From: Klebsiella pneumoniae
Lineage (GTDB): Bacteria > Pseudomonadota > Gammaproteobacteria > Pseudomonadales > CAMAPQ01
Assembly (NCBI GenBank): GCA_945860125.1
Contig: CAMAPQ010000006.1
Span: 1 to 58,980 of the forward strand
Reading direction: 5' to 3'
Length of the DNA: 58,980 bases
Shown in pieces: positions 252 through 16,658 of the stretch. The translations under genes and the position numbers were made by a program. The notes under the pieces were generated by a model. The model saw only the letters and a list, made by a program, of their open reading frames with translations. It searched no databases and had not been told where the DNA came from. Within the stretch, counting starts at the first letter, position 1, and every line of letters begins with the position of its first letter.

Positions 252-2183
252 TTATTTTTTTTGTTTAAATCCTTTTACGAGATCTTCTATTACGCTTGGG
301 TCTGCTAGTGTTGTGATGTCTCCCAGCTCTCCGAGTTCATTATTGGCAATTTTTCTTAGGATTCGTCGCATTATTTTCCCTGATCTCGTTTTAGGTAGGC
401 TTTGAGCTACTTGGATGTAGTCAGGTTTTGCGATTGCGCTGATTTCTTTAGCAACATGCTGTATCAGTTCGTCTATATCTACAACCGCTCCTTTCATAGG
501 TGTAACAAAAGCATAAATTGCTTGGCCTTTAATGTGGTGCGGTGTGCCTACAACTGCAGCTTCTGCAATTGTAGGGTGCAAGACAAGTGCGCTTTCTATT
601 TCGGCGGTACCAAGACGATGCCCTGAGACATTAAGAACATCGTCTATTCTGCCGGTAATCCAATAATAGCCATCTTGATCTCTAAAGGCGCCATCACCTG
701 TGAAATAGTGTCCTGGAAAAGCGCGATAATAGGTATCTATGCAACGAAGATGATCGCCAAAAACACTTCTAATCTGGCTTGGCCAGCTTGTGGTTATTAC
801 TAAGCTGCCCTTTGCTTTACCCTCTAAAATTTCTCCTTTTTCGTTTACTAGGGCAGGTTTAATCCCAAAAAAGGGAAGTGTTGCACTTCCTGGTTTTAAA
901 TCAATTGCGCCCGGTAAAGGTGCAATCATGATTGCTCCTGTTTCTGTTTGCCACCAGGTATCAACAATTGGGCAGCGGCCTTCACCTACCACATGAAAAT
1001 ACCATTCCCAAGCTTCAGGGTTAATAGGTTCGCCTACGGAGCCCAGTAATCGCAAAGAAGATCTATTATGTTTTAGTACAAATTCATCGCCAACAGCCAT
1101 TAATGCTCGGATTGCTGTAGGTGCTGTATAGAGAATATTGACTTGGTGTTTTTCTACAATTTGCCAAAATCTGCCTGCGTCAGGATAAGTGGGAATACCT
1201 TCAAAAACTAAGGTTGTTCCAGCATTTGCCAGTGGGCCATAGACAATATAACTGTGTCCAGTTATCCATCCTACATCTGCCGTACACCAGTAAATATCGC
1301 CTTCTTGATAATCTAGAACATATTTATGTGTCATCATTGATTGTAGAAGATAGCCTGCCTGCGTATGCAGTACACCTTTTGGTTTTCCTGTTGAGCCAGA
1401 GGTATACAGGATAAATAAAGGATCCTCTGCATCCATTACTTCTGGCTCTGAATAATTACTTACTGTTTTTTCTGCTTCATGGAGCCAAATGTCGCGATCA
1501 TTTACCCAGCTCACTTGTTCTGCTGCATGTTTTACGACAATGACTGAGTGTACATTTGGGCAAGAAAGTAAGGCGGTATCTACATTGCTTTTCAAGGGCG
1601 TTTTTTTATTGCCGCGGATAGCCATATCTGCGGTAATCACGATTCTACAGTCGCTATCAAGAATTCGATCCTTAAGCGATTCAGGTGAAAATCCCCCAAA
1701 TACGACAGAATGAACAGCACCTATACGTGCACAAGCAAGCATGGCATAAACAGCCTCTGGAATCATTGGCATATAAATACAAATACGATCACCTTTTTGA
1801 GCGCCGCGCATTTTTAATATATTTGCCATTTTGCATACAGACTCATGAAGTGCTTTATATGTAATTTTTTTGCTCTGTGATGGATCGTCGCTTTCCCAAA
1901 TAATGGCAGTCTTGTCTGCGTGTGTTTTTAAGTGGCGATCTATGCAGTTATAACAGACATTCAGTTTGCCTTCTTTAAACCAGACTGCTTTTCCTTCGTG
2001 AAAGTTATATTCAGATACTTGACTCCATGGTTGAAACCAAGAAATGAATTCATTTGCTCTGAGCCCCCAGAACTCATTTGGTGCTTCAATTGATTGCTTA
2101 TACCATTCTTGATATTTTTCATACGGCATATTGGTATTTTTTTTGGTTTCTGCTAGAACAGGATAAACTTTAACCTCTGACAT
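252..2183 (-). CDS. acs: acetyl-CoA synthetase (AMP-forming)
   Basis: Activates acetate to acetyl-AMP and then acetyl-CoA in the cytoplasm. The protein is 643 residues, the usual Acs size. Visible motifs are the adenylate-forming P-loop [11 protein letters not shown], the [11 protein letters not shown] region, [27 protein letters not shown], and [11 protein letters not shown] near the C-terminus, which carries the lysine that is acetylated in Acs regulation. The ATG at 2183 is chosen because AGGAG precedes it and the protein then starts MSEVKVYPV; the reading frame stays open 28 codons further but without such support. It is the last gene of a minus-strand run, 52 bp after panC. In Pseudomonas an acs gene also lies near panC. 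Confidence 0.96.
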
Positions 2184-2235
2184 GAGCGCTCCTTTAATTT
2201 TGTAAGTCTGGAATTTGTGGGAGACGTATAATCCG

Positions 2236-3105
2236 CTAGATCTGTAGGCTAAATGATAGATTATCAATTAGCCTTGTTTTGCCAAGATAAGCGGCGACTA
2301 AGGCAACCAAGTGACGATCTGATGGTTGTGGCATAGAAAGATTTTGAGATCTAACTTCAAAATAGTCAGGCTTAAAGCCGTTGCTTAAAAGTTGTTCGCC
2401 TCGTAGTTTTTCATGGCGAGAAAGTGTTTCATGCGAAAGGTTAAGATGTCCTGACTGTATAAGTTGAGCTGTTTCATTGAGTAAACTGAAAATAGTGCCG
2501 GCAGTATCTTTTTCTTTTTCAGTTAAGTACTGATTTCGTGAGCTCATTGCCAATCCATTTTTTTCTCTGAGCGTTGGTGCGCTGATTATTTTTATATCAA
2601 AACCAAGCGTACTAACAAGCGTATTTATTACGGTGAGTTGCTGATAATCTTTTAAGCCAAAGATCGCAATATTTGGCTGGACAAGATTAAATAAAATGGT
2701 AATGATAGTCGCTACACCATCAAAGTGGCCGGGTCTGAAAGCGCCGCATAAAATATGTGATAGGTAAGGTACAGAAACACGAGCAGGTAAATCTAGCCCA
2801 AACGGGTACATTTCTTCAATGCTTGGCACAAATACAAAAGTTGTTTCTGTCGTTGCTAGTTTTTTTATATCTTCTTCTAGTGTTCGCGGGTAACGTGCAA
2901 AGTCTTCGTTAGGTCCAAATTGGGTAGGATTAACAAAGAGGCTAACGACAATACAGTCTGCTTCTTTTGCTGCAAGATTGACGAGAGATAAGTGTCCATC
3001 ATGCAGATTTCCCATAGTCGGTACAAGCGCAATTTTTTTGCTATTTAATCGATAAGGTTTGAGGGCTGCAGTCAAACTTCCTCTATCAGAGATGAGCGTT
3101 ATCAT
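2236..3105 (-). CDS. panC: pantothenate synthetase
   Basis: Condenses pantoate with beta-alanine using ATP, the last step of pantothenate synthesis. The protein is 289 residues. The nucleotidyltransferase signature [14 protein letters not shown] is near residues 29-42; [19 protein letters not shown] follows, then the GLKDYQQL and SSRNQYL motifs typical of PanC. Its ATG overlaps the panB stop by one base (TAATG), so the two are translationally coupled. With panB it forms the standard panBC pair; no panD is in the window. Confidence 0.97.
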
Positions 3106-3899
3106 TAGTCAAAACCATGTTGTTCAGATGGAAATGTTTTCGCTTTTACGGCAACAGCATAAGCTTTAATTGCTGACTGAATATCCGGCTGATGTTCCAT
3201 AAAATTTTTAACAAAACGGGCTGTTTTATTTGGGTTAAGCCCTAGCATATCGTGAAGTACTAATACCTGAGCATCGCAATCTGCCCCTGCACCAATACCA
3301 ATAACGGGTATGCTCAGGCTTTGAGTTAATGTTTTTCCTACAGAGCTAGGAATGCACTCTACTAGTAGCATGTCTGCTCCCGCAGATTCTAGTAACTTTG
3401 CGGTTGCAAGTAATTCCTTCGCTGCATTTTCGCCTCTGCCTTGTACTTTATAGCCGCCCAGTTTATTAACTGATTGTGGGGTGAGGCCTATATGTGCGCA
3501 TACAGGGACGCCCCCTCTATTTAATGCTTCTATAGAGGGGGCGAGCCAAACGCCGCCTTCAAGTTTGAGGCAGTGAGCACCTGCTTGCATCAGGCGGGTT
3601 GCGTAGTTTAGTATCAATGATAATTCAATGCCTGACATAAAAGGCATGTCTGCCATAATCAAGGCATTTGTTACGCCCTTACTCACACACTGCGTATGAT
3701 AAACCATTTGATCAATTGTAACGGGGAGCGTTGATGAGTTACCTTGTAACACCATGCCAAGAGAATCCCCTACTAAAATAACTTCTACACCTGCTTGATC
3801 TATCCAGTGGGCAAAACACGCATCATATCCGGTAAGTACTGCAAACTTTTGATCATGCTGTTTTAATTGTCGTAAAAATGGAACTGTTATTCTGCTCAT
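3105..3899 (-). CDS. panB: 3-methyl-2-oxobutanoate hydroxymethyltransferase
   Basis: Makes ketopantoate from alpha-ketoisovalerate and methylene-tetrahydrofolate, the committed step to pantothenate. The protein is 264 residues, the family length. Visible are VLTGYDACFAHWID, the metal/substrate loop ILVGDSLGMVLQG, the MADMPFMSG block, KLEGG, HIGLTPQ and IPVIGIGAG. Its start codon overlaps the stop of folK by four bases (ATGA). The folate gene folK directly upstream is a common partner in this gene order and fits PanB's use of a folate C1 donor. Confidence 0.97.
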   Translation of the reverse strand: MSRITVPFLRQLKQHDQKFAVLTGYDACFAHWIDQAGVEVILVGDSLGMVLQGNSSTLPVTIDQMVYHTQCVSKGVTNALIMADMPFMSGIELSLILNYATRLMQAGAHCLKLEGGVWLAPSIEALNRGGVPVCAHIGLTPQSVNKLGGYKVQGRGENAAKELLATAKLLESAGADMLLVECIPSSVGKTLTQSLSIPVIGIGAGADCDAQVLVLHDMLGLNPNKTARFVKNFMEHQPDIQSAIKAYAVAVKAKTFPSEQHGFD

Positions 3900-4387
3900 A
3901 ATTTAAACTGACCTAGGCAAATTAAAGCGTTATCCTCTGCACAAGGTAACAAGTCTCGTAACACTTGTCCATTAGGTAGAGCTATGTCTGGCGTAATCTC
4001 TAGCAGAGGCTTTAAAACAAAATCTCTTTGCGTAATACCTGGATGAGGCAGCATTAATATGCTGCTATTTATAACTAAATGATCAACTAAAAGAATGTCA
4101 AGATCTATGGTGCGAGCAATCCATCTCTCATGAGTTCTCACCCTACCTTGATTACGCTCAATGCTTTGTAGTGCTGTTAGTAACGCTAAAGGAGCTAAAT
4201 TTGTTTCTATTAAAGCAGCAGCATTGATGTAATCAGGTTGGTTACTTTTATCCAGAGGTTTTGTTTTATAAAAAGAAGAGTAGTCAAAAATACCTTCGCT
4301 CAATAATTTAATTGAGTTAAGTGCAGATAAAATTTGCGTGATAGGGTCATTTAAATTTGAGCCTAATCCAATATAGGCTTTATTCAT
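3896..4387 (-). CDS. folK: 2-amino-4-hydroxy-6-hydroxymethyldihydropteridine pyrophosphokinase
   Basis: Transfers pyrophosphate from ATP to 6-hydroxymethyl-dihydropterin in folate synthesis. The protein is 163 residues. It starts MNKAYIGLGSNL and contains FYKTKPLDKSNQPDYINAA, the signature RWIARTIDLDILL (pterin/Mg-binding Asp residues) and LPHPGITQRDFVLKPL. It lies 10 bp after pcnB and overlaps panB by ATGA, so pcnB-folK-panB-panC reads as one operon, the same order as in Pseudomonas. Confidence 0.96.
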   Translation of the reverse strand: MNKAYIGLGSNLNDPITQILSALNSIKLLSEGIFDYSSFYKTKPLDKSNQPDYINAAALIETNLAPLALLTALQSIERNQGRVRTHERWIARTIDLDILLVDHLVINSSILMLPHPGITQRDFVLKPLLEITPDIALPNGQVLRDLLPCAEDNALICLGQFKL

Positions 4388-4397
4388 ACGCCGCCTT

Positions 4398-5792
4398 TTA
4401 TTGAGGTTGGGTTTCTTGCGGGTTGGGTGGCGATTTTTTAGGCGACCGTTTACGTTTTTTCTTTTTGGTGCCGCTAGATTTCAGTGCTTTGAGCATTATT
4501 TCACGTGCTTGTTCCCCGGCATCCTGGTAGCTTGCCCACCAATTAGCAAGATCACCAACATTTTCGCCTGCTTTTTCCCTTAATAATAGAAAGTCATATC
4601 CTGCACGAAAGCGTGCAAACTCAATAACAGTGCGGACAGACTTGACAGTTCTTATAGCAAGTCTAGTTTGTAGTTCCCAAATGTCTCGGATGTAAAGCAT
4701 TAGTGCTTTGGGGATTAAAGTAATTTTGGACTGGTTAGCAAGCGTTTGCATCATTGCGCTGTTCAGTGCAGGAAATAAAGCCTCACCATTTTTTATATAT
4801 ACATCAAGCTTCGTTTGCATGGGATGCCATAATAGGCAAGCATAGAGAAAGGCTGGCGTGACTCTTTTGTCGTTGATTATTCGTTGGTCTGTGTTGATTA
4901 GGCCTAGTCTAATCAGTGTGGGTTGATAGGCGTCTGAGTTTAGGCTGTTAGCTGTCGCAGGGTAAAGCAAGGAAAAAATCCCAAGGCGGCATAATATATC
5001 AAAGGTTTTTTCAGCATGCCCCATCAGAAATAGCTTGATAGTTTCATCGAATAGTCTTGCTGGAGAAACATTATAAAGCAGTGTTTTTGTTTCAGGAATG
5101 CATGCTTCTATATCAGGATCTATCGTAAAACTAAGCTTGGCTGCAAGCCTTGCCGCTCTTAGCATTCGTACAGGGTCTTCCCTGAAGCGCACGCCTGGAT
5201 TGCCGATCATCACAAGCTGTTTATTTTGTAGATCCTTCATGCCGGATGAAAAATCCGTAATTACATGTTGGTCTGCATCATAATAAAAAGCATTGACTGT
5301 AAAGTCGCGACGATCAGCATCTTCTTCGATGGTTCCATATTGATTGTCGGCGATTAAAAGTCCGTGCTCATTTGAGCGAATAAAGCGAGAGGTATTATTA
5401 GTCTCTTTTTCATTGGGTGCGCTCCTAAACGTCGTTACTTCAACAATCTCGTTGCGAAAAAGTATGTGTGCAATGCGAAATCGTCTGCCTATAAGTCGGC
5501 AGTTAGAAAAGATTTTTCTTATTTCTTCTGGTTTAGCATTGGTTGCAACATCAAAGTCTTTAGGGGTTCCCTCTAGTAATAAATCTCTCACAGAGCCGCC
5601 CACAACGAATCCCATATAGCCAGATTTCTTCAGTGTTTTGAGTACGCTAAGCGCCTGAAGGCTGATTTCTACTTGCTTAAAGGGCGCCCGAAAAGTTATG
5701 GTGTTCGTTTTATTGTTTTTTGGAGAAGTTTGGTTTTGTTTGCCGTGGGAAACTATTTTCTTTATTTTCCCAATCAGGTCAGTCAGTCTCAT
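4398..5792 (-). CDS. pcnB: poly(A) polymerase I
   Basis: Adds poly(A) tails to RNA 3' ends and so promotes RNA decay. The protein is 464 residues. The nucleotidyltransferase core is GFVVGGSVRDLLLEGTPKDFDVATNA (about residues 60-85), followed by RLIGRRFRIAHILF, EEDADRRDFTVNAFYYD and the RFREDPVRMLRAARLAAKL helix. These distinguish PcnB from the CCA-adding enzyme, together with the long C-terminal part and the strongly basic tail (SGTKKKKRKRSPKK). Upstream lies a perfect minus-strand -10 box, TATAAT, at 5813-5818, which would leave only a short leader. Confidence 0.95.
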   Translation of the reverse strand: MRLTDLIGKIKKIVSHGKQNQTSPKNNKTNTITFRAPFKQVEISLQALSVLKTLKKSGYMGFVVGGSVRDLLLEGTPKDFDVATNAKPEEIRKIFSNCRLIGRRFRIAHILFRNEIVEVTTFRSAPNEKETNNTSRFIRSNEHGLLIADNQYGTIEEDADRRDFTVNAFYYDADQHVITDFSSGMKDLQNKQLVMIGNPGVRFREDPVRMLRAARLAAKLSFTIDPDIEACIPETKTLLYNVSPARLFDETIKLFLMGHAEKTFDILCRLGIFSLLYPATANSLNSDAYQPTLIRLGLINTDQRIINDKRVTPAFLYACLLWHPMQTKLDVYIKNGEALFPALNSAMMQTLANQSKITLIPKALMLYIRDIWELQTRLAIRTVKSVRTVIEFARFRAGYDFLLLREKAGENVGDLANWWASYQDAGEQAREIMLKALKSSGTKKKKRKRSPKKSPPNPQETQPQ

Positions 5793-8094: not shown

Positions 8095-11404
<3,310 letters not shown>

Positions 11405-11442
11405 GTGATATGACGCAAGGCTAAGCTTTCTTTGCGATGCCA

Positions 11443-11820
11443 ATAAAAACAAGGGTTCTTTTCCAGAAACCCTTGGAGGCCGTGAGGCAAATCTTTACGT
11501 GTTTTTTTGTTATTTGTGTAAGCTATACGGTTTATCTTGCTCCTCCATGACCGGGCCACTTTTTGTTATTTTAGTGTGTGCCCGGTAAATTCAATCCCTT
11601 GTTTCTCTTAGAAGGCGCCTCTTTTTTCTTGTTATTATTGAGTTCGCTTTCTTCTTCCACTGTCATCTGAGATCTTTATTTTTGTTATGTTAATAATATT
11701 TTTTTTTTGATCTCTTCTCTCCTGCTTTTTTATTTCTTCTTTTTATTTAAGCTATTAATCATACTCCTAATGGTTGGGAGTACTTCTTGTTCTGACTTTT
11801 TTCTAAAGAGCTGTTTCATA
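11443..11820 (-). ncRNA. crcZ: CrcZ-type regulatory small RNA (predicted)
   Basis: The 593-bp gap between cbrB and the convergent argB contains a complete small-RNA gene on the minus strand. A sigma-54 promoter (TGGCAC-N6-TGC, 11846-11832) predicts a start near 11820, and an intrinsic terminator ends it near 11443, giving about 378 nt; Pseudomonas CrcZ/CrcY are of similar size. At least six purine/A-rich segments of the Hfq/Crc CA-motif type (AAnAAnAA) occur, for example AACAAGAA (11791-11784), AATAATAACAAGAA (11639-11626), AATAACAAAAA (11570-11560) and AAATAACAAAAAAA (11515-11502). One sits in the loop of a perfect 7-bp stem (arms 11550-11556 and 11580-11586), extended by a further 4 bp; another short hairpin is at 11762-11782. 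Location after cbrB matches Pseudomonas. Function as an Hfq/Crc decoy is inferred. Confidence 0.82.
11444..11474 (-). terminator. intrinsic terminator of the CrcZ-type RNA
   Basis: Read on the minus strand, AAGGGTT (11474-11468) pairs with AACCCTT (11457-11451), with two more possible pairs towards the loop, and is followed by GTTTTTATT. This is a normal rho-independent terminator. It lies 40 bp beyond the end of argB and could help end plus-strand transcription only weakly, because no T-run follows in that direction. Confidence 0.8.
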
Positions 11821-11831
11821 TAATATATAAA

Positions 11832-11846
11832 GCAGAAACTGTGCCA
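11832..11846 (-). promoter_or_regulatory. sigma-54 (-24/-12) promoter of the CrcZ-type RNA
   Basis: On the minus strand the sequence is TGGCACAGTTTCTGCTT. The GG at 11845-11844 and the GC at 11833-11832 are exactly ten bases apart, the strict RpoN requirement, and TGGCAC is the full consensus -24 element. The predicted start is about 11820. Confidence 0.85.
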
Positions 11847-11928
11847 GTTTATTAAAAATAAAAAAGGCTATTGTAATCATTGTGTTATAGTTGTTTTGGG
11901 TTCTGCTGTTAGACTGTAACGAGAGAAG

Positions 11929-11979
11929 TGTTACTGTGCGCGGTGGGAAGTGTTACGTTTTAATGGTAACAACGTAACA
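11929..11979. promoter_or_regulatory. CbrB-type enhancer: clustered TGTTAC / GTAACA subsites
   Basis: TGTTAC occurs at 11929-11934 and 11951-11956 and GTAACA at 11966-11971 and 11974-11979. The middle part forms a perfect 13-bp dyad (GAAGTGTTACGTT, 11947-11959, with its reverse complement at 11971-11983). It lies about 110-160 bp upstream of the predicted small-RNA start, the normal distance for a sigma-54 activator. TGTTAC/GTAACA halves are, as I remember, the CbrB recognition elements described at Pseudomonas crcZ. Confidence 0.75.
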
Positions 11980-11997
11980 CTTCTATGAATATGCAGC

Positions 11998-13401
11998 CTA
12001 GAAAAATTTTGCTGTTTGTTTTTTGCGAGGAATCCCAAGTTTTTGTCTGCGCTCCCAAAGACATTTTCTGCTAATACCTAACTTTTGAGCAATATCTGTT
12101 TCAGTCATATATTCCTGATGCTCCAAAACAAAGCGCATAAAAAAATCTTCCAGTGGAAGGTCTTCTTGTGGATCCTCTATATTTTTTGCTCTACTTGATA
12201 ACACTTTTATTGTATTTGTCATCGGCGAATTAACAGAGTTAGCATCTAAATTCAGTAAGTCTGCCGAGATAGCCGGCTCATCGCAAAGAACGACAGCGCG
12301 CTCTATTGCATTTTCAAGCTCCCTTACATTGCCTGGCCAAGAATAAGCACAAATAGCTTCAAGTGCAGAGCTTGTAAAGTTAAGCGGGGCTCTTTTTAAT
12401 TTTCCGCATACTTTTTGTATGAAAAACTCAGCTAGAATGACTCTATCATCTCCCCTATTTCTCAGAGGAGGGATGTTGAGCTCAATCACATTTAGTCGAT
12501 AGTAAAGATCTTCTCTAAACTTCCCTTCTCGTGCTAATACTTTTAAATTTCGATGCGTTGCTGCAATGAGCCTTATATCAACCTTTCTTGAAAGCGTAGA
12601 ACCCACTCTGCGAACTTCCTTTTCTTGTAGCAGCCTAAGAAGCCTTGATTGTGCTTCAAGAGGTAGTTCGCCAATTTCATCTAGAAATAGCGTTCCACCA
12701 TGTGCCGCATCAACCAACCCTTTGCGTAGGCTCACTGCCCCGGTAAAAGCGCCTTTCTCATGACCAAACAGCTCTGATTCAATAAGCGTTTCAGGAATTG
12801 CCGCGCAGTTAACAGAAATCATTGCGCCTGTGGCTCTGTTGCTTAGTTCGTGTAGCGCTTTCGCAACTAACTCTTTACCTGTGCCTGACTCTCCCAAGAT
12901 TAGGACCGTTGAATCAGTTGGTGCAACACGATGCATTCTATTAAACAATAAATTCATTTGCGTAGATTGACCAACAATACCTGTTGTTTGCGAGCTTGCT
13001 TCTTGTTCTTTGTTCGTAGACGTACTTTTGTTCTGTAAAGTGATAGCTGAGGTATGTTTTTTAATGGCAGCGGCTGTCGCTTCAAGCATTTCCTGGTTAT
13101 CAAATGGCTTAGCGATGTAGTCAACAGCGCCTTTTTTAATGGCTTCCACGGCAGATCGCAAACTTGCATAGCTTGTCATAAGCAGAACAGGCGTATTGTT
13201 TCCCACCTCTATAAGTGAAGTTCCTGGCTGTCCGGGCAGACGAACATCGGAAATAATTAAGTCAAAAGAACTGCTCGAAAGTTTTTCCAAGGCCTCGTTA
13301 ACGGAGTGGGTTGCGGTTACATCATATTGATTTCTCTCAAGTAATCTTTTCAGAGAAGCACAAATGATGGGTTCATCTTCAACCAATAAAATCCGATTCA
13401 T
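11998..13401 (-). CDS. cbrB: sigma-54-dependent response regulator CbrB
   Basis: NtrC-family activator, 467 residues. Receiver domain at 1-120 with acidic pocket VEDEP, phospho-acceptor Asp52 in IISDVRLPG, and the conserved lysine in YIAKPFD. AAA+ domain from about 140 with Walker A GESGTGKE, the sigma-54 contact loop GAFTGA, Walker [13 protein letters not shown] and the arginine region [18 protein letters not shown] Fis-type helix-turn-helix is at the C-terminus ([29 protein letters not shown]). It follows the sensor cbrA by 148 bp and precedes the CrcZ-type RNA, as in Pseudomonas, where CbrB turns on crcZ and carbon/nitrogen catabolic genes. Confidence 0.92.
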
Positions 13402-13530
13402 ACTGACCGTTCTCTCTAATCTTAAATTTGATTAACCTGCCTTAAGTAAAAAAGGCGGCGAAATAAAATCATTTTATGATAAGCAAAAGGATTAGGATGC
13501 AGTAAACGGATATAAATAACCAGTTTAAAA

Positions 13531-13583
13531 TGTTACGGAATGAGTGCTGTTAAGGTAACACTTCCTCACTTAGGTAACACTTT
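13531..13583. promoter_or_regulatory. second cluster of TGTTAC / GTAACA motifs upstream of cbrB
   Basis: TGTTAC at 13531-13536 is followed by GTAACA at 13555-13560 and 13575-13580; the last two overlap the 3' end of cbrA. Both copies extend to GTAACACTT, the same nonamer as at 11974-11982. They lie 130-180 bp before the cbrB start and could allow CbrB to act on its own gene. I see no exact GG-N10-GC promoter between them and cbrB. Confidence 0.45.
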
Positions 13584-16492
13584 GGTAAATGAATAGTTGC
13601 TTCAGTACCTGTTTTTTCTTCTTTGATCGGGCTTACAATTGAAATCGTTCCTCCGTGATCTCTAATAATGTTATAGATAAGTGATAATCCAAGCCCAGTA
13701 CCTTTTCCGGGTTCTTTGGTTGTAACAAAGGGTTCAAAAATATGTGGGAGTATTTCTTGGGAAATGCCTACTCCATTATCTTTGACTGTGACAGAAATAT
13801 ATTGAGGGTCGGCGCGAACGCTAATTATGATTATTCCTTCTTCTTTGTCTGTAATAGCGTCAAGCGCATTATCAAATAGATTAATGAACACTTGAATCAG
13901 TTTTTGGCTATCGCCATGGATGGTCGTTATATCTGGCTGATCAAGTATAAATTGAATCTGTTTAGATTTAGGATTTAGTTGAATAATACTAAGTGCTTCA
14001 CTAATAATTTCACGTAAGTTGACTGTTCTGAAGTCATATTCTGTTTTCCCTGCGTGACTGTAATTAATTAAAGACTGCACAATATTTGAGATTCTTTTTG
14101 TTAAAGATAGAATTTGTTGTGCGCTCAAGTGAGTTTGAGACTCTCTTGATAGCTCAATTATTTCTTGTGCAAGACAGGCGATGCCTGTTACAGGGTTACC
14201 AATTTCATGGGCGATACCCACTGCTAATCTGCCTACAGAAGCAAGACGATCACTATGAGCGAGCTGTGATTGTAATACTTTTATTTCTGTATAATCTTCT
14301 ACCAAAATAACAAGGTAACTCGCCTCTTTACTATTTTTTTCCTGAGAAACCTGTGTTTTGTGAAAGCCTAACCATAATTGTTTTTTATCTATTTCAATAG
14401 GATATTGAACATGTTGTGCTTCGGCTGTAATAAACTGACTAATTAAGGCGTTCCACGGTGCATTGATATCTGAAAGAGAAGCACCGATGACTTCTTCACC
14501 CATTAAGTGGGTGATTTTTTCCATTGTTTTATTCCAAGCAATTAATTCGTTATCTGAGCCTATAATGCAAACCCCAATGGGTAGATCCTGCAAAACATTC
14601 CGATGAAATCTGCGTAGCTGGTCAAGTGCACGAGCTAATCCTGTTAATTTAAACTGATAACGTTCAAGATGGCTTTCTATAAAATAAATATCTTCAGATG
14701 TGTTTTTTGTTGTTTTTTGCGCTGAGTCTAGGCTTGTTTCAATAATATTTCCTGCTAGCATCGGCCCTAATAAATAAGAAAGATTTATTTCAATGCGATC
14801 TTTTAAGCGTCTTAGATTATAAGGTCGAACCTCTTCATGCGTTAAGCCTAGCTCTTGCAGTGCTTTTTTTACTTCTTGTTCGGCTGATTCATGTCCAATA
14901 GAGTGACTTAGCTTTCTGATAAATCCTGCAATACTATTTACCGTCAGCACTGAACGGATTGATTTTTTAACGTGAGCACTTACACAGGCTTCCGCTGCAT
15001 AGCGTTCTTGAGGTGAGGGTTTCCGATAAATTGAGACGCCTATAAAAACAAGCATGTTTACGATAAAAGCAGTCATTGTTGGTGCTTGCCAGTTATCAAT
15101 ATTCGGGGAAAACCCTAGATCAAACGGTAATCTTGCGCCTTGATCTAGGGTTGGTAAAAATAGCCCTAAAAGCCAGATGATAAAGCCACAGATTAGTCCG
15201 CATATAAATCCCATTCTAGTTGCGCTTGTCCAAAATAAAACCCCAACAAGCCCTGGCGAAAATTGTGTAAAAAGAGCAAGCGTTAGAAAAAGTGACTCTG
15301 TTAAATCGAGTGTATTATTCAGAAAAAGATGAAAAAACAAGCAAAGCAAAATAATTAACATGACAAATAGGGCATTAAATTTTGGCAATGTTGAAATTAA
15401 GTCGCTCTTAGGTTTGTGGATAATGTAAGGCAGCACAAGATAGTTGGTCAGCATGACGCTTAGATTGGTCGAGGCAGCTATAATAATAGCGCCTGAAGCA
15501 ATCAAAGAAGCCATTGATACGATCAAAATTAAAATTTTTGAATGAGAGGCTATAGCAAAATGCACAAGAGCATAATTGGGGTCAGCAAAGATTTTGAGTT
15601 TAAGTGTGCTCCATAAAATAAACGGGGGAATAATAGCGGTAATTAAAATTAATAAAGGTAAACCCCAGCTCGCTTGAATAATTGATTTTTGTTCTGTGTA
15701 TGCTGAAAAAACCGAATGATAAATGTGTGGCAGGGTAATTGCGCTTGCAAAGCTTACAAAAATTAAGGTGCTCCAGTTACCATGTTCAAGAGGAGAATAA
15801 AGCATTTCGGTTGCTTGAGGCGTCTGTGATAGCCAGTCATAAAGTGTTTGTGTTTCATCCAGCACAAAAAAATACGCATATACAGCAATAATCACAATAC
15901 AGCCCATTTTAATGAAGCCTGCTAGGGCTGTGCATAAGACTAAACTTAAGCCATTTTCGTGTTTAGTTGAGCCTGAAAAACTTAAGTGGATCGTAAGAAG
16001 AAAGAGGGTAATTGAAAAAGAAACTGCAAATATATTTGATGATTTTTCGCTGGGATTGATAAGATAAAAAACTTGATTAGCGGTTGTAATTTGTGATGAT
16101 AAAAGAGGAATTGAGGCGATAAGACTGATTAGCGCAACCAGCCTGCCAACCTGAGAGCTTCTATATCGAAATACAAATAAATCAGCGAGGGAGAGCAGTT
16201 GATAAGTATGCGTAAGGCGGTATAACGGCAGTAAAAAAATTGGCGCGATAATGAATAGAGCGCTAACGCCATAGTAGTGAGCAAAATAACTATAGCCATA
16301 TTGATAAGCAAAGCCGGTGCTGCCTAAAAGAAACCAGCTGCTTATTAGCGTTGATAAAGTGAAAATAAATACGGCAGGATGCTGGGCAACTGAAGCAGGA
16401 ATTCTCTTTTTTTGTATGGCGTTATTTAGCAGTAGAATAATTGCAATAAGAAAAAGGGCGGGGGTTATTGCGATAATAAAGTTAGAGGTCAT
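13550..16492 (-). CDS. cbrA: sensor histidine kinase CbrA with SLC5/PutP-like transporter domain
   Basis: Large inner-membrane sensor kinase of 980 residues. About 13 hydrophobic segments in residues 1-500 form a sodium/solute symporter-like domain. A linker of the STAC type follows (about 520-600), then a PAS domain (VLQDLPIGVCIIGSDNELIAWN), the dimerisation/H-box GRLAVGIAHEIGNPVTGIA with His near residue 762, and the ATPase motifs INLFDNALDA, VKDNGVGIS, IFEPFVTTK and GTGLGLSL. CbrA of Pseudomonas has this architecture and transports histidine. ATG 16492 is preferred to TTG 16495; either overlaps the small upstream ORF and lacks its own good ribosome site, suggesting coupled translation. Confidence 0.93.
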   Translation of the reverse strand: MTSNFIIAITPALFLIAIILLLNNAIQKKRIPASVAQHPAVFIFTLSTLISSWFLLGSTGFAYQYGYSYFAHYYGVSALFIIAPIFLLPLYRLTHTYQLLSLADLFVFRYRSSQVGRLVALISLIASIPLLSSQITTANQVFYLINPSEKSSNIFAVSFSITLFLLTIHLSFSGSTKHENGLSLVLCTALAGFIKMGCIVIIAVYAYFFVLDETQTLYDWLSQTPQATEMLYSPLEHGNWSTLIFVSFASAITLPHIYHSVFSAYTEQKSIIQASWGLPLLILITAIIPPFILWSTLKLKIFADPNYALVHFAIASHSKILILIVSMASLIASGAIIIAASTNLSVMLTNYLVLPYIIHKPKSDLISTLPKFNALFVMLIILLCLFFHLFLNNTLDLTESLFLTLALFTQFSPGLVGVLFWTSATRMGFICGLICGFIIWLLGLFLPTLDQGARLPFDLGFSPNIDNWQAPTMTAFIVNMLVFIGVSIYRKPSPQERYAAEACVSAHVKKSIRSVLTVNSIAGFIRKLSHSIGHESAEQEVKKALQELGLTHEEVRPYNLRRLKDRIEINLSYLLGPMLAGNIIETSLDSAQKTTKNTSEDIYFIESHLERYQFKLTGLARALDQLRRFHRNVLQDLPIGVCIIGSDNELIAWNKTMEKITHLMGEEVIGASLSDINAPWNALISQFITAEAQHVQYPIEIDKKQLWLGFHKTQVSQEKNSKEASYLVILVEDYTEIKVLQSQLAHSDRLASVGRLAVGIAHEIGNPVTGIACLAQEIIELSRESQTHLSAQQILSLTKRISNIVQSLINYSHAGKTEYDFRTVNLREIISEALSIIQLNPKSKQIQFILDQPDITTIHGDSQKLIQVFINLFDNALDAITDKEEGIIIISVRADPQYISVTVKDNGVGISQEILPHIFEPFVTTKEPGKGTGLGLSLIYNIIRDHGGTISIVSPIKEEKTGTEATIHLPKCYLSEEVLP

Positions 16493-16658
16493 CAAGATCT
16501 TTGCTGCGACTGAACCAGAAAGTAATAATAATTACAGCTAGGCTTGCAATAAAAGGCCGATACCACTGGAGCCTGTTTTCAAGTGCCCATGAAAATACTG
16601 TCGGCGAAAGAAAAAACAAAGCTAAAGAGAAAGCAATAATAAGACGGTTAATGTACAT
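16482..16658 (-). CDS. cbrX: small membrane protein, CbrX-like
   Basis: A 58-residue ORF that is easily missed. ATG 16658 is preceded by a strong AAGGAGAGAGG. The product starts MYINRLIIAFSLALFFLSP, then W-A-L-E-N-R-L-Q-W-Y-R-P, a second hydrophobic stretch (FIASLAVIIITFWF) and a charged end SRSKDLDDL. So it has two short membrane segments. Its stop lies inside cbrA (11-bp overlap). In Pseudomonas putida a small ORF, cbrX, overlaps cbrA in the same way and couples its translation; I base the name on position, size and topology rather than on an alignment. Confidence 0.75.
   Translation of the reverse strand: MYINRLIIAFSLALFFLSPTVFSWALENRLQWYRPFIASLAVIIITFWFSRSKDLDDL

Follow-up and report, generated by a model that had tools for sequence, protein, structure and literature searches.

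The 593-nt gap between argB and cbrB in the window (the whole analysed stretch of 58,980 nt) probably carries the gene for an RNA of about 378 nt, which is activated by CbrB, transcribed from a sigma-54 promoter and works like CrcZ as a decoy for Hfq. The gap is bordered by the end of argB at position 11404 (plus strand) and the end of cbrB at position 11998 (minus strand). Read on the minus strand from the cbrB stop codon, it contains four CbrB-type hexamers, a GG-N10-GC site of the sigma-54 type, a stretch rich in A and a hairpin that resembles a terminator. The reading is based on the gene order, the promoter elements and their spacing, the excess of motifs, the terminator-like hairpin, the presence of hfq and rpoN and the recurrence of the arrangement across the order; from these we infer transcription, activation by CbrB, Hfq binding and the target mRNAs.

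Upstream of the gap lies a cbrAB pair. The cbrA gene (13550–16495, minus strand) encodes a protein of 981 aa which combines a transporter-like N-terminal part with a PAS/HisKA/HATPase sensor kinase; HATPase_c and PAS were found above the Pfam cut-off and HisKA slightly below it, and the transporter part gave no Pfam match. The cbrB gene (11998–13401, minus strand) encodes an NtrC-family sigma-54 activator of 467 aa with the domains Response_reg and Sigma54_activat. Upstream of cbrA, dksA is located. The genes pcnB (4398–5792), folK, panB, panC and an acetyl-CoA synthetase-like gene are found together at positions 252–5792, and between them and the predicted RNA lie argB, a phosphomannomutase-type gene and coaBC, all on the opposite strand. 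In Pseudomonas the pcnB-folK-panB-panC block follows cbrB; here the acetyl-CoA synthetase-like gene sits inside this block, and argB and two further genes intervene before cbrB. Since argB is convergent, a role of the A-rich stretch as a 5' leader was ruled out, and a coding role of the gap was set aside because the predicted RNA contains no sense-strand ORF of more than 31 aa. A further group of two TGTTAC and one GTAACA was observed at 13525–13585, at the 3' end of cbrA and thus upstream of cbrB; no GG-N10-GC site was seen there, and the region represents a weak second match of the promoter profile described below (E = 0.047). At least two CbrB-type hexamers within 260 nt upstream of cbrB occur in nine of 44 loci, and autoregulation of CbrB through the hexamers at 13525–13585 is possible.

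Within the 177 nt between the predicted transcription start and cbrB four TGTTAC/GTAACA hexamers are located on the minus strand (11929–11979), whereas dinucleotide shuffles contain 0.26 on average and none of 2000 reaches four. In the order of transcription they are a forward subsite TGTTAC (F1, 11979–11974), an extra forward hexamer (11971–11966) and two reverse subsites GTAACA (R1, 11956–11951, and R2, 11934–11929). The published CbrB site consists of one forward and two reverse subsites which lie 20–25 bp apart on the same face of the helix (PMC6296734). The predicted F1-R1-R2 series follows this order with spacings of 23 and 22 bp, within the published range, and has one forward hexamer in addition. 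Relative to the promoter the hexamers are found at -133, -125, -110 and -88, which places them 8–11 bp farther from it than is most frequent in relatives of the same order (about -122, -101 and -80).

The sigma-54 promoter itself, TGGCACAGTTTCTGCT with its -24 and -12 elements, is situated at 11846–11831 on the minus strand. It was recognized by the strict GG-N10-GC pattern as well as by the promoter profile of the relatives, and it is the only match of the strict pattern on both strands of the window. The original prediction had described a perfect promoter at this place and on this strand; its -12 element differs from TTGC by one base. From the promoter position a transcription start near 11820 is predicted. 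Across the 2.58 Mb genome the combined pattern GTAACA-N70-100-TGGCAY-N6-TGC has a single match, at this locus; the reversed control pattern likewise has one. The combined pattern was found somewhere in 42 of 56 genomes, including six of the 12 genomes without a full CbrA, and was rejected as a marker on its own for this lack of specificity. A site for IHF as in P. putida was likewise discarded: the one-mismatch site at 11875 is at chance level, with 114 such sites in the window.

The predicted RNA extends on the minus strand from 11820 to 11443 and consists of 47% A. It contains ten non-overlapping AAnAAnAA motifs (at least six A-rich segments had been predicted), compared with a shuffle mean of 3.3; none of 1000 shuffles reaches ten, so that the excess goes beyond the effect of A content. 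Segments of the type (ARN)n with n of at least 4 number seven, with a shuffle mean of 2.74, and a fraction of 0.0025 of 2000 shuffles reaches this number. One of these putative Hfq sites, all on the minus strand, is AATAACAAAAAG (11559–11570), which is placed in a predicted hairpin loop and whose AAnAAnAA core has a mean unpaired probability of 1.00. From the (ARN)n motif and the analysis of unpaired probabilities, further sites were assigned to AATAACAAAAAA (11503–11514), an (ARN)6 segment (11622–11639), AACAAAAATAAA (11675–11686) and an (ARN)5 segment (11733–11747). A repeat search also detected AAATAACAAAAA twice, together with close variants. Compared with 100 shuffles, the 378 nt are predicted to form a more stable fold (z = -2.78), with hairpins situated between the A-rich segments. 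Adenines of the motifs are mostly unpaired in this fold (mean 0.92, versus 0.75 for other adenines), although one motif reaches only 0.48. The transcript would end at a terminator-like hairpin (11475–11450, minus strand) of nine pairs, four of them G-C, followed by TTTTTATT, as the original prediction had it; in the 1 kb scanned, seven terminator-like sites including this one were counted over the two strands, with 0.8 expected.

For the comparison with relatives 56 genomes were searched, namely that of the window's organism (2.58 Mb in 125 contigs, 96.8% complete) and 55 others of the same order, none of which belongs to the same family. To judge from loci that are identical to those of named records and from the Rfam CrcZ match in genome G020, this order probably corresponds to the Pseudomonadales in a wide sense. 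A CbrA-type match with E < 1e-100 was obtained in the window's genome and in 43 others, and the remaining 12 gave matches of E 1e-37 or weaker only. The CbrA-type proteins of the 43 genomes share 31–43% identity with that of the window; in four of them (G021, G032, G044, G051) the matches are partial or split in two. In all 43 relatives cbrA is followed by cbrB (50–62% identity). As full layout we defined a sigma-54-like site that is preceded by one or more CbrB hexamers within 160 nt and followed by two or more AAnAAnAA within 300 nt, a rule that was fixed after the relatives had been inspected. With 41 of the 43 relatives evaluable (the sequences of L043 and L061 after cbrB are too short), the full layout was detected downstream of cbrB in 32 of 41, which represent 28 families. 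The same rule selected two of 1006 control windows of mostly coding DNA from the same genomes, none of 8400 sequences produced from the same stretches by dinucleotide shuffling and, across the study window, two of 332 tiles, both covering this locus. In 30 of the 32 relatives with the layout AAnAAnAA is in excess (shuffle fraction < 0.05), and for these relatives and the window together 153 such motifs were counted compared with 35 expected.

The strict layout is absent in nine of the 41 evaluable relatives. Two of these (L047, L039) retain CbrB hexamers together with an A-rich run, one (L056) has a degenerate A-rich stretch and one (L073) a very short form in which hexamer-like sites, a hairpin and two A-rich motifs are packed into about 250 nt after cbrB; in the remaining five (L060, L078, L052, L074, L054) nothing was evident downstream of cbrB. 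In seven loci (L046, L051, L053, L057, L062, L068, L076) the first promoter-like site is followed by another one, and in several of them this further sigma-54-like site has hexamers and A-rich motifs of its own, as tandem copies would; L062 also gives three weak Rfam CrcZ matches. Judged by these sequence features, the CrcZ-type layout occurs in a large part of the order. The original prediction, which placed the CbrAB-CrcZ circuit or an analogous RNA in this lineage, is supported in part; it had pictured a single lineage. The prediction had also made the gene depend on rpoN in the genome and on persistence of promoter and A-rich motifs in relatives; rpoN is present, and the 32 relatives that keep the layout belong to other families of the same order.

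That a homology search could miss the RNA had been anticipated correctly. The Rfam CrcZ model (RF01675) gave 11.2 bits with the window RNA (E = 0.91 in a search of 501 bases) at a threshold of 95, and the Rfam search of positions 9000–14000 yielded no CrcZ match at E of 1 or below. In a relaxed search of the window the top two rows were eukaryotic snoRNA families on the opposite strand, which were taken as chance matches. When 42 of the 43 relatives' loci (without L061) were given to Rfam, the CrcZ gathering score was reached in two, with 306.8 bits in L041 (genome G020) and 102.5 bits in L042 (genome G045). At a relaxed threshold ten chosen loci produced seven matches of 66.9 to 19.6 bits, all to CrcZ, in five loci; four of these have E < 0.005 (66.9, 39.3, 26.9 and 26.3 bits in L044, L063, L062 and L046) and fall within the predicted transcripts, that of L046 within its second unit. 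No CrcZ match at this threshold was obtained in the other five (L037, L040, L051, L069, L071); in the genomes of L037 and L069 the crc locus also encodes a nuclease whose active site is intact. With scores from 306.8 down to 26 bits, the set of relatives thus grades into known CrcZ. A promoter profile of the 32 relatives, built with the window excluded, matches 11978–11824 at E = 7.8e-14, and on this sequence evidence promoter and position are homologous to those of the relatives. The corresponding transcript profile hits 11676–11541 at the right place and on the right strand with E = 0.77, short of significance. We therefore do not claim homology for the RNA body, which appears to be like that of the relatives in kind.

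When named genomes were scanned with one CbrA protein as query, no match was obtained. With a CbrA alignment 565 loci were obtained, of which the best 80, more than half of them from Pseudomonadaceae, were analyzed; four were left unevaluated. Among these best 80 of 565 loci the layout was found in 65 of the 76 evaluable ones: 41 of Pseudomonadaceae, 19 of other families, three without family assignment and two in records apparently mislabelled (as Pantoea and Pedobacter), which were excluded from the genus count. The 19 loci belong to 11 genera of six NCBI families outside Pseudomonadaceae, namely Gilvimarinus, Marinimicrobium, Microbulbifer, Spongiibacter, Zhongshania, Balneatrix, Amphritea, Bacterioplanes, Motiliproteus, Neptunomonas and Marinobacter. 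Three loci are identical in sequence to loci of the relatives (L143 = L069, L158 = L040, L197 = L046), so that the two sets overlap. The layout was missing from four Alcanivoracaceae, six Chromatiales and one unplaced locus of the 76. All four Alcanivoracaceae loci show hexamers and A-rich motifs and no strict promoter match. After cbrB of the Chromatiales, hexamers occur in four of six loci (L195, L206, L212, L221) and AAnAAnAA at most once. In five of these loci (L195, L206, L212, L218, L221) protein genes replace the RNA, in four of the five behind CbrB-type hexamers. L195 shows the start of an acetate-CoA ligase-like gene (30.1 bits for a piece of 46 aa), L206, L218 and L221 have similar starts as judged by eye, and L212 encodes the small subunit of a sodium/substrate symporter at the place of the RNA. 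The hexamers ahead of these genes suggest that CbrB may control acetate-use genes directly in Chromatiales.

The window's genome encodes one Hfq (103 bits) and one RpoN. Across the 56 genomes hfq was found in 52 and rpoN in all, in 54 of them above the cut-off; the fragmented genomes G022 (full layout, 89% complete) and G050 (only the short form, that of L073; 93% complete) yielded no hfq. Of the four Exo_endo_phos proteins in the window's genome, L034 is ExoIII-like and L033 is the sole candidate for Crc. L033 scores higher with the Neisseria nuclease NApe (261.7 bits) than with Pseudomonas Crc (206.7 bits), and its gene adjoins rph and yicC; for comparison, the Crc of genome G020 (L107), also encoded beside rph, reaches 519 bits with the solved Crc. 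An AP-nuclease tree was established from 63 rows, comprising 62 loci (L081–L142, L081 being L033; L104 was cut to 262 aa) and the ExoIII-like L034; weaker rows of about 107 bits and below, including a partial match from G022, were left out. The Crc clade comprises 38 rows (support 100/99), 31 of which have rph beside the gene, and L081 falls outside. The nuclease positions NEYDNDDH are kept in all 25 rows outside the clade, with eight of eight residues in L081, and are departed from in all 38 Crc rows, in agreement with the loss of active-site residues described for P. aeruginosa Crc (PMC3662782). Because the sole candidate retains all eight of the nuclease residues that are eroded in Crc proteins, a canonical Crc, which was not found in this 96.8% complete draft, looks absent from the window's genome; a strongly diverged Crc that scored too low to enter the tree is possible. 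The AU test does not reject L081 as sister to Crc, either alone (p = 0.34) or together with L082, L086 and L090 (p = 0.42), so that L033 is possibly a proto-Crc at the same locus. The full RNA layout without a row in the Crc clade was also found in G016, G021, G025, G028, G032 and G043. Five of these genomes are drafts, whereas G028 consists of a single contig and gave one nuclease match.

According to the model which we favor, scarcity of preferred carbon would lead CbrA to phosphorylate CbrB, which would bind to F1-R1-R2 and let the sigma-54 polymerase fire at 11846–11831. The roughly seven (ARN)n segments, mostly predicted to be unpaired, would occupy Hfq hexamers at their distal face and draw Hfq off the A-rich ribosome-binding sites of catabolic mRNAs, whereby catabolite repression would be lifted. 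The original prediction envisaged titration of Hfq and Crc. Its Hfq part is consistent with the hfq gene found, but the only Crc candidate lies outside the Crc clade and has an intact nuclease site, and titration of Hfq alone therefore fits better, with the AU test allowing a position as sister to Crc. Since a canonical Crc was not found, Hfq is probably the only protein that the RNA acts on in the window's organism.

The RNAs CsrB, RsmY and RsmZ carry GGA motifs which are bound by CsrA/RsmA. With them the predicted RNA shares the principle of repeated binding motifs for titrating a post-transcriptional regulator, whereas it would use ARN repeats for Hfq. The closest likeness is to CrcZ (RF01675) of Pseudomonas and Azotobacter, which has the place after cbrB, the sigma-54 promoter, the F1-R1-R2 series at 20–25 bp and the terminator-like end in common with it. 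CrcZ of P. aeruginosa has a length of 407 nt (378 nt predicted here) and six (ARN)n segments with n of at least 4 (seven here), and it titrates Hfq, binding to its distal face and releasing catabolic mRNAs (PMC4063720). Differences are that the window RNA is unrecognized by Rfam, that argB is convergent downstream and that no canonical Crc was found in the genome. CrcY and CrcX of P. putida and P. syringae are CbrB-driven A-rich RNAs that represent extra copies (PMC8871633); they are of the same class as the predicted RNA, whose promoter pattern occurs only once in the genome. The window RNA appears to work like CrcZ, outside RF01675 by score and apparently without a Crc partner.

Three other explanations were weighed against this reading. 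The RNA might be driven by CbrB and sigma-54 and depend on Hfq, yet exert its effect chiefly through pairing with target mRNAs; the A-rich segments would then serve only to recruit Hfq. Hfq-binding RNAs often pair with their targets, and the hairpins predicted between the A-rich segments would suit such a function. What recurs in the relatives, however, are the repeated A-rich sites; no conserved transcript segment was detected with the profile of the 32 relatives (E = 0.77), which share a class of motif and not a sequence, and we regard base-pairing as the main function as quite improbable. Still less credible, to the point of being scarcely tenable, is a decayed or chance A-rich spacer without any transcript. 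Such spacers are common in genomes of low GC content, and that of the window is fairly low with 40%; against this stand hexamers and A-rich motifs in numbers above those of shuffles, a promoter like that of the relatives, and a layout that shuffled sequences never and control windows hardly ever reproduce.

A more serious rival is that the RNA and CrcZ are analogues without common descent: unrelated A-rich RNAs would have come repeatedly under the control of an old CbrB promoter located after cbrB. Strong homology of the promoter with undetected homology of the transcript is in line with this, as are the loci outside the order (L195, L212) in which CbrB-type hexamers precede a protein gene after cbrB. 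The CrcZ score nevertheless falls gradually through the order (306.8, 102.5, 66.9, 39.3, 26.9 and 26.3 bits), the pattern expected of one fast-evolving RNA, and repeated recruitment is in our view unlikely. Of the original prediction, the CrcZ-type RNA gene downstream of the cbrAB pair is supported by the sequence, by the layout kept in most evaluable relatives and by the presence of hfq and rpoN.

In the window's lineage and the genomes G021, G025 and G028 the decoy-RNA layout occurs together with a nuclease that is encoded at the crc locus and has kept its active site. We tentatively suggest, as an idea with rather less than even odds, that the decoy RNA predates Crc: an ancestral A-rich RNA driven by CbrAB would have acted on Hfq alone, and Crc would have arisen later from the nuclease of the rph-yicC locus by losing its active site and becoming a partner of Hfq. 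These four would keep the earlier state; at a still earlier stage, outside the order, acetate-use genes may have been under direct control of the CbrB promoter.

In a review from 2022 CbrAB-crcZ is regarded as unique to Pseudomonadaceae and described from Pseudomonas and Azotobacter only (PMC8871633). In open-licence literature, which leaves most subscription papers outside, we found no reports of CbrAB-crcZ in other genera; in the same literature crcZ in Marinobacter gave no match, and CbrA together with Marinobacter led to a community transcript study whose accessible part names no such circuit. The CbrAB-crcZ-type gene order and promoter layout were found here in 28 families of one order, beyond the Pseudomonadaceae of the review, and also in genera that can be cultured, Marinobacter and Microbulbifer among them; the Rfam CrcZ threshold was reached in only two of 42 relatives' loci. 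Genomes with the RNA layout and without a canonical Crc would provide a natural test of what Crc contributes to an Hfq-decoy system and of which of the two came first.
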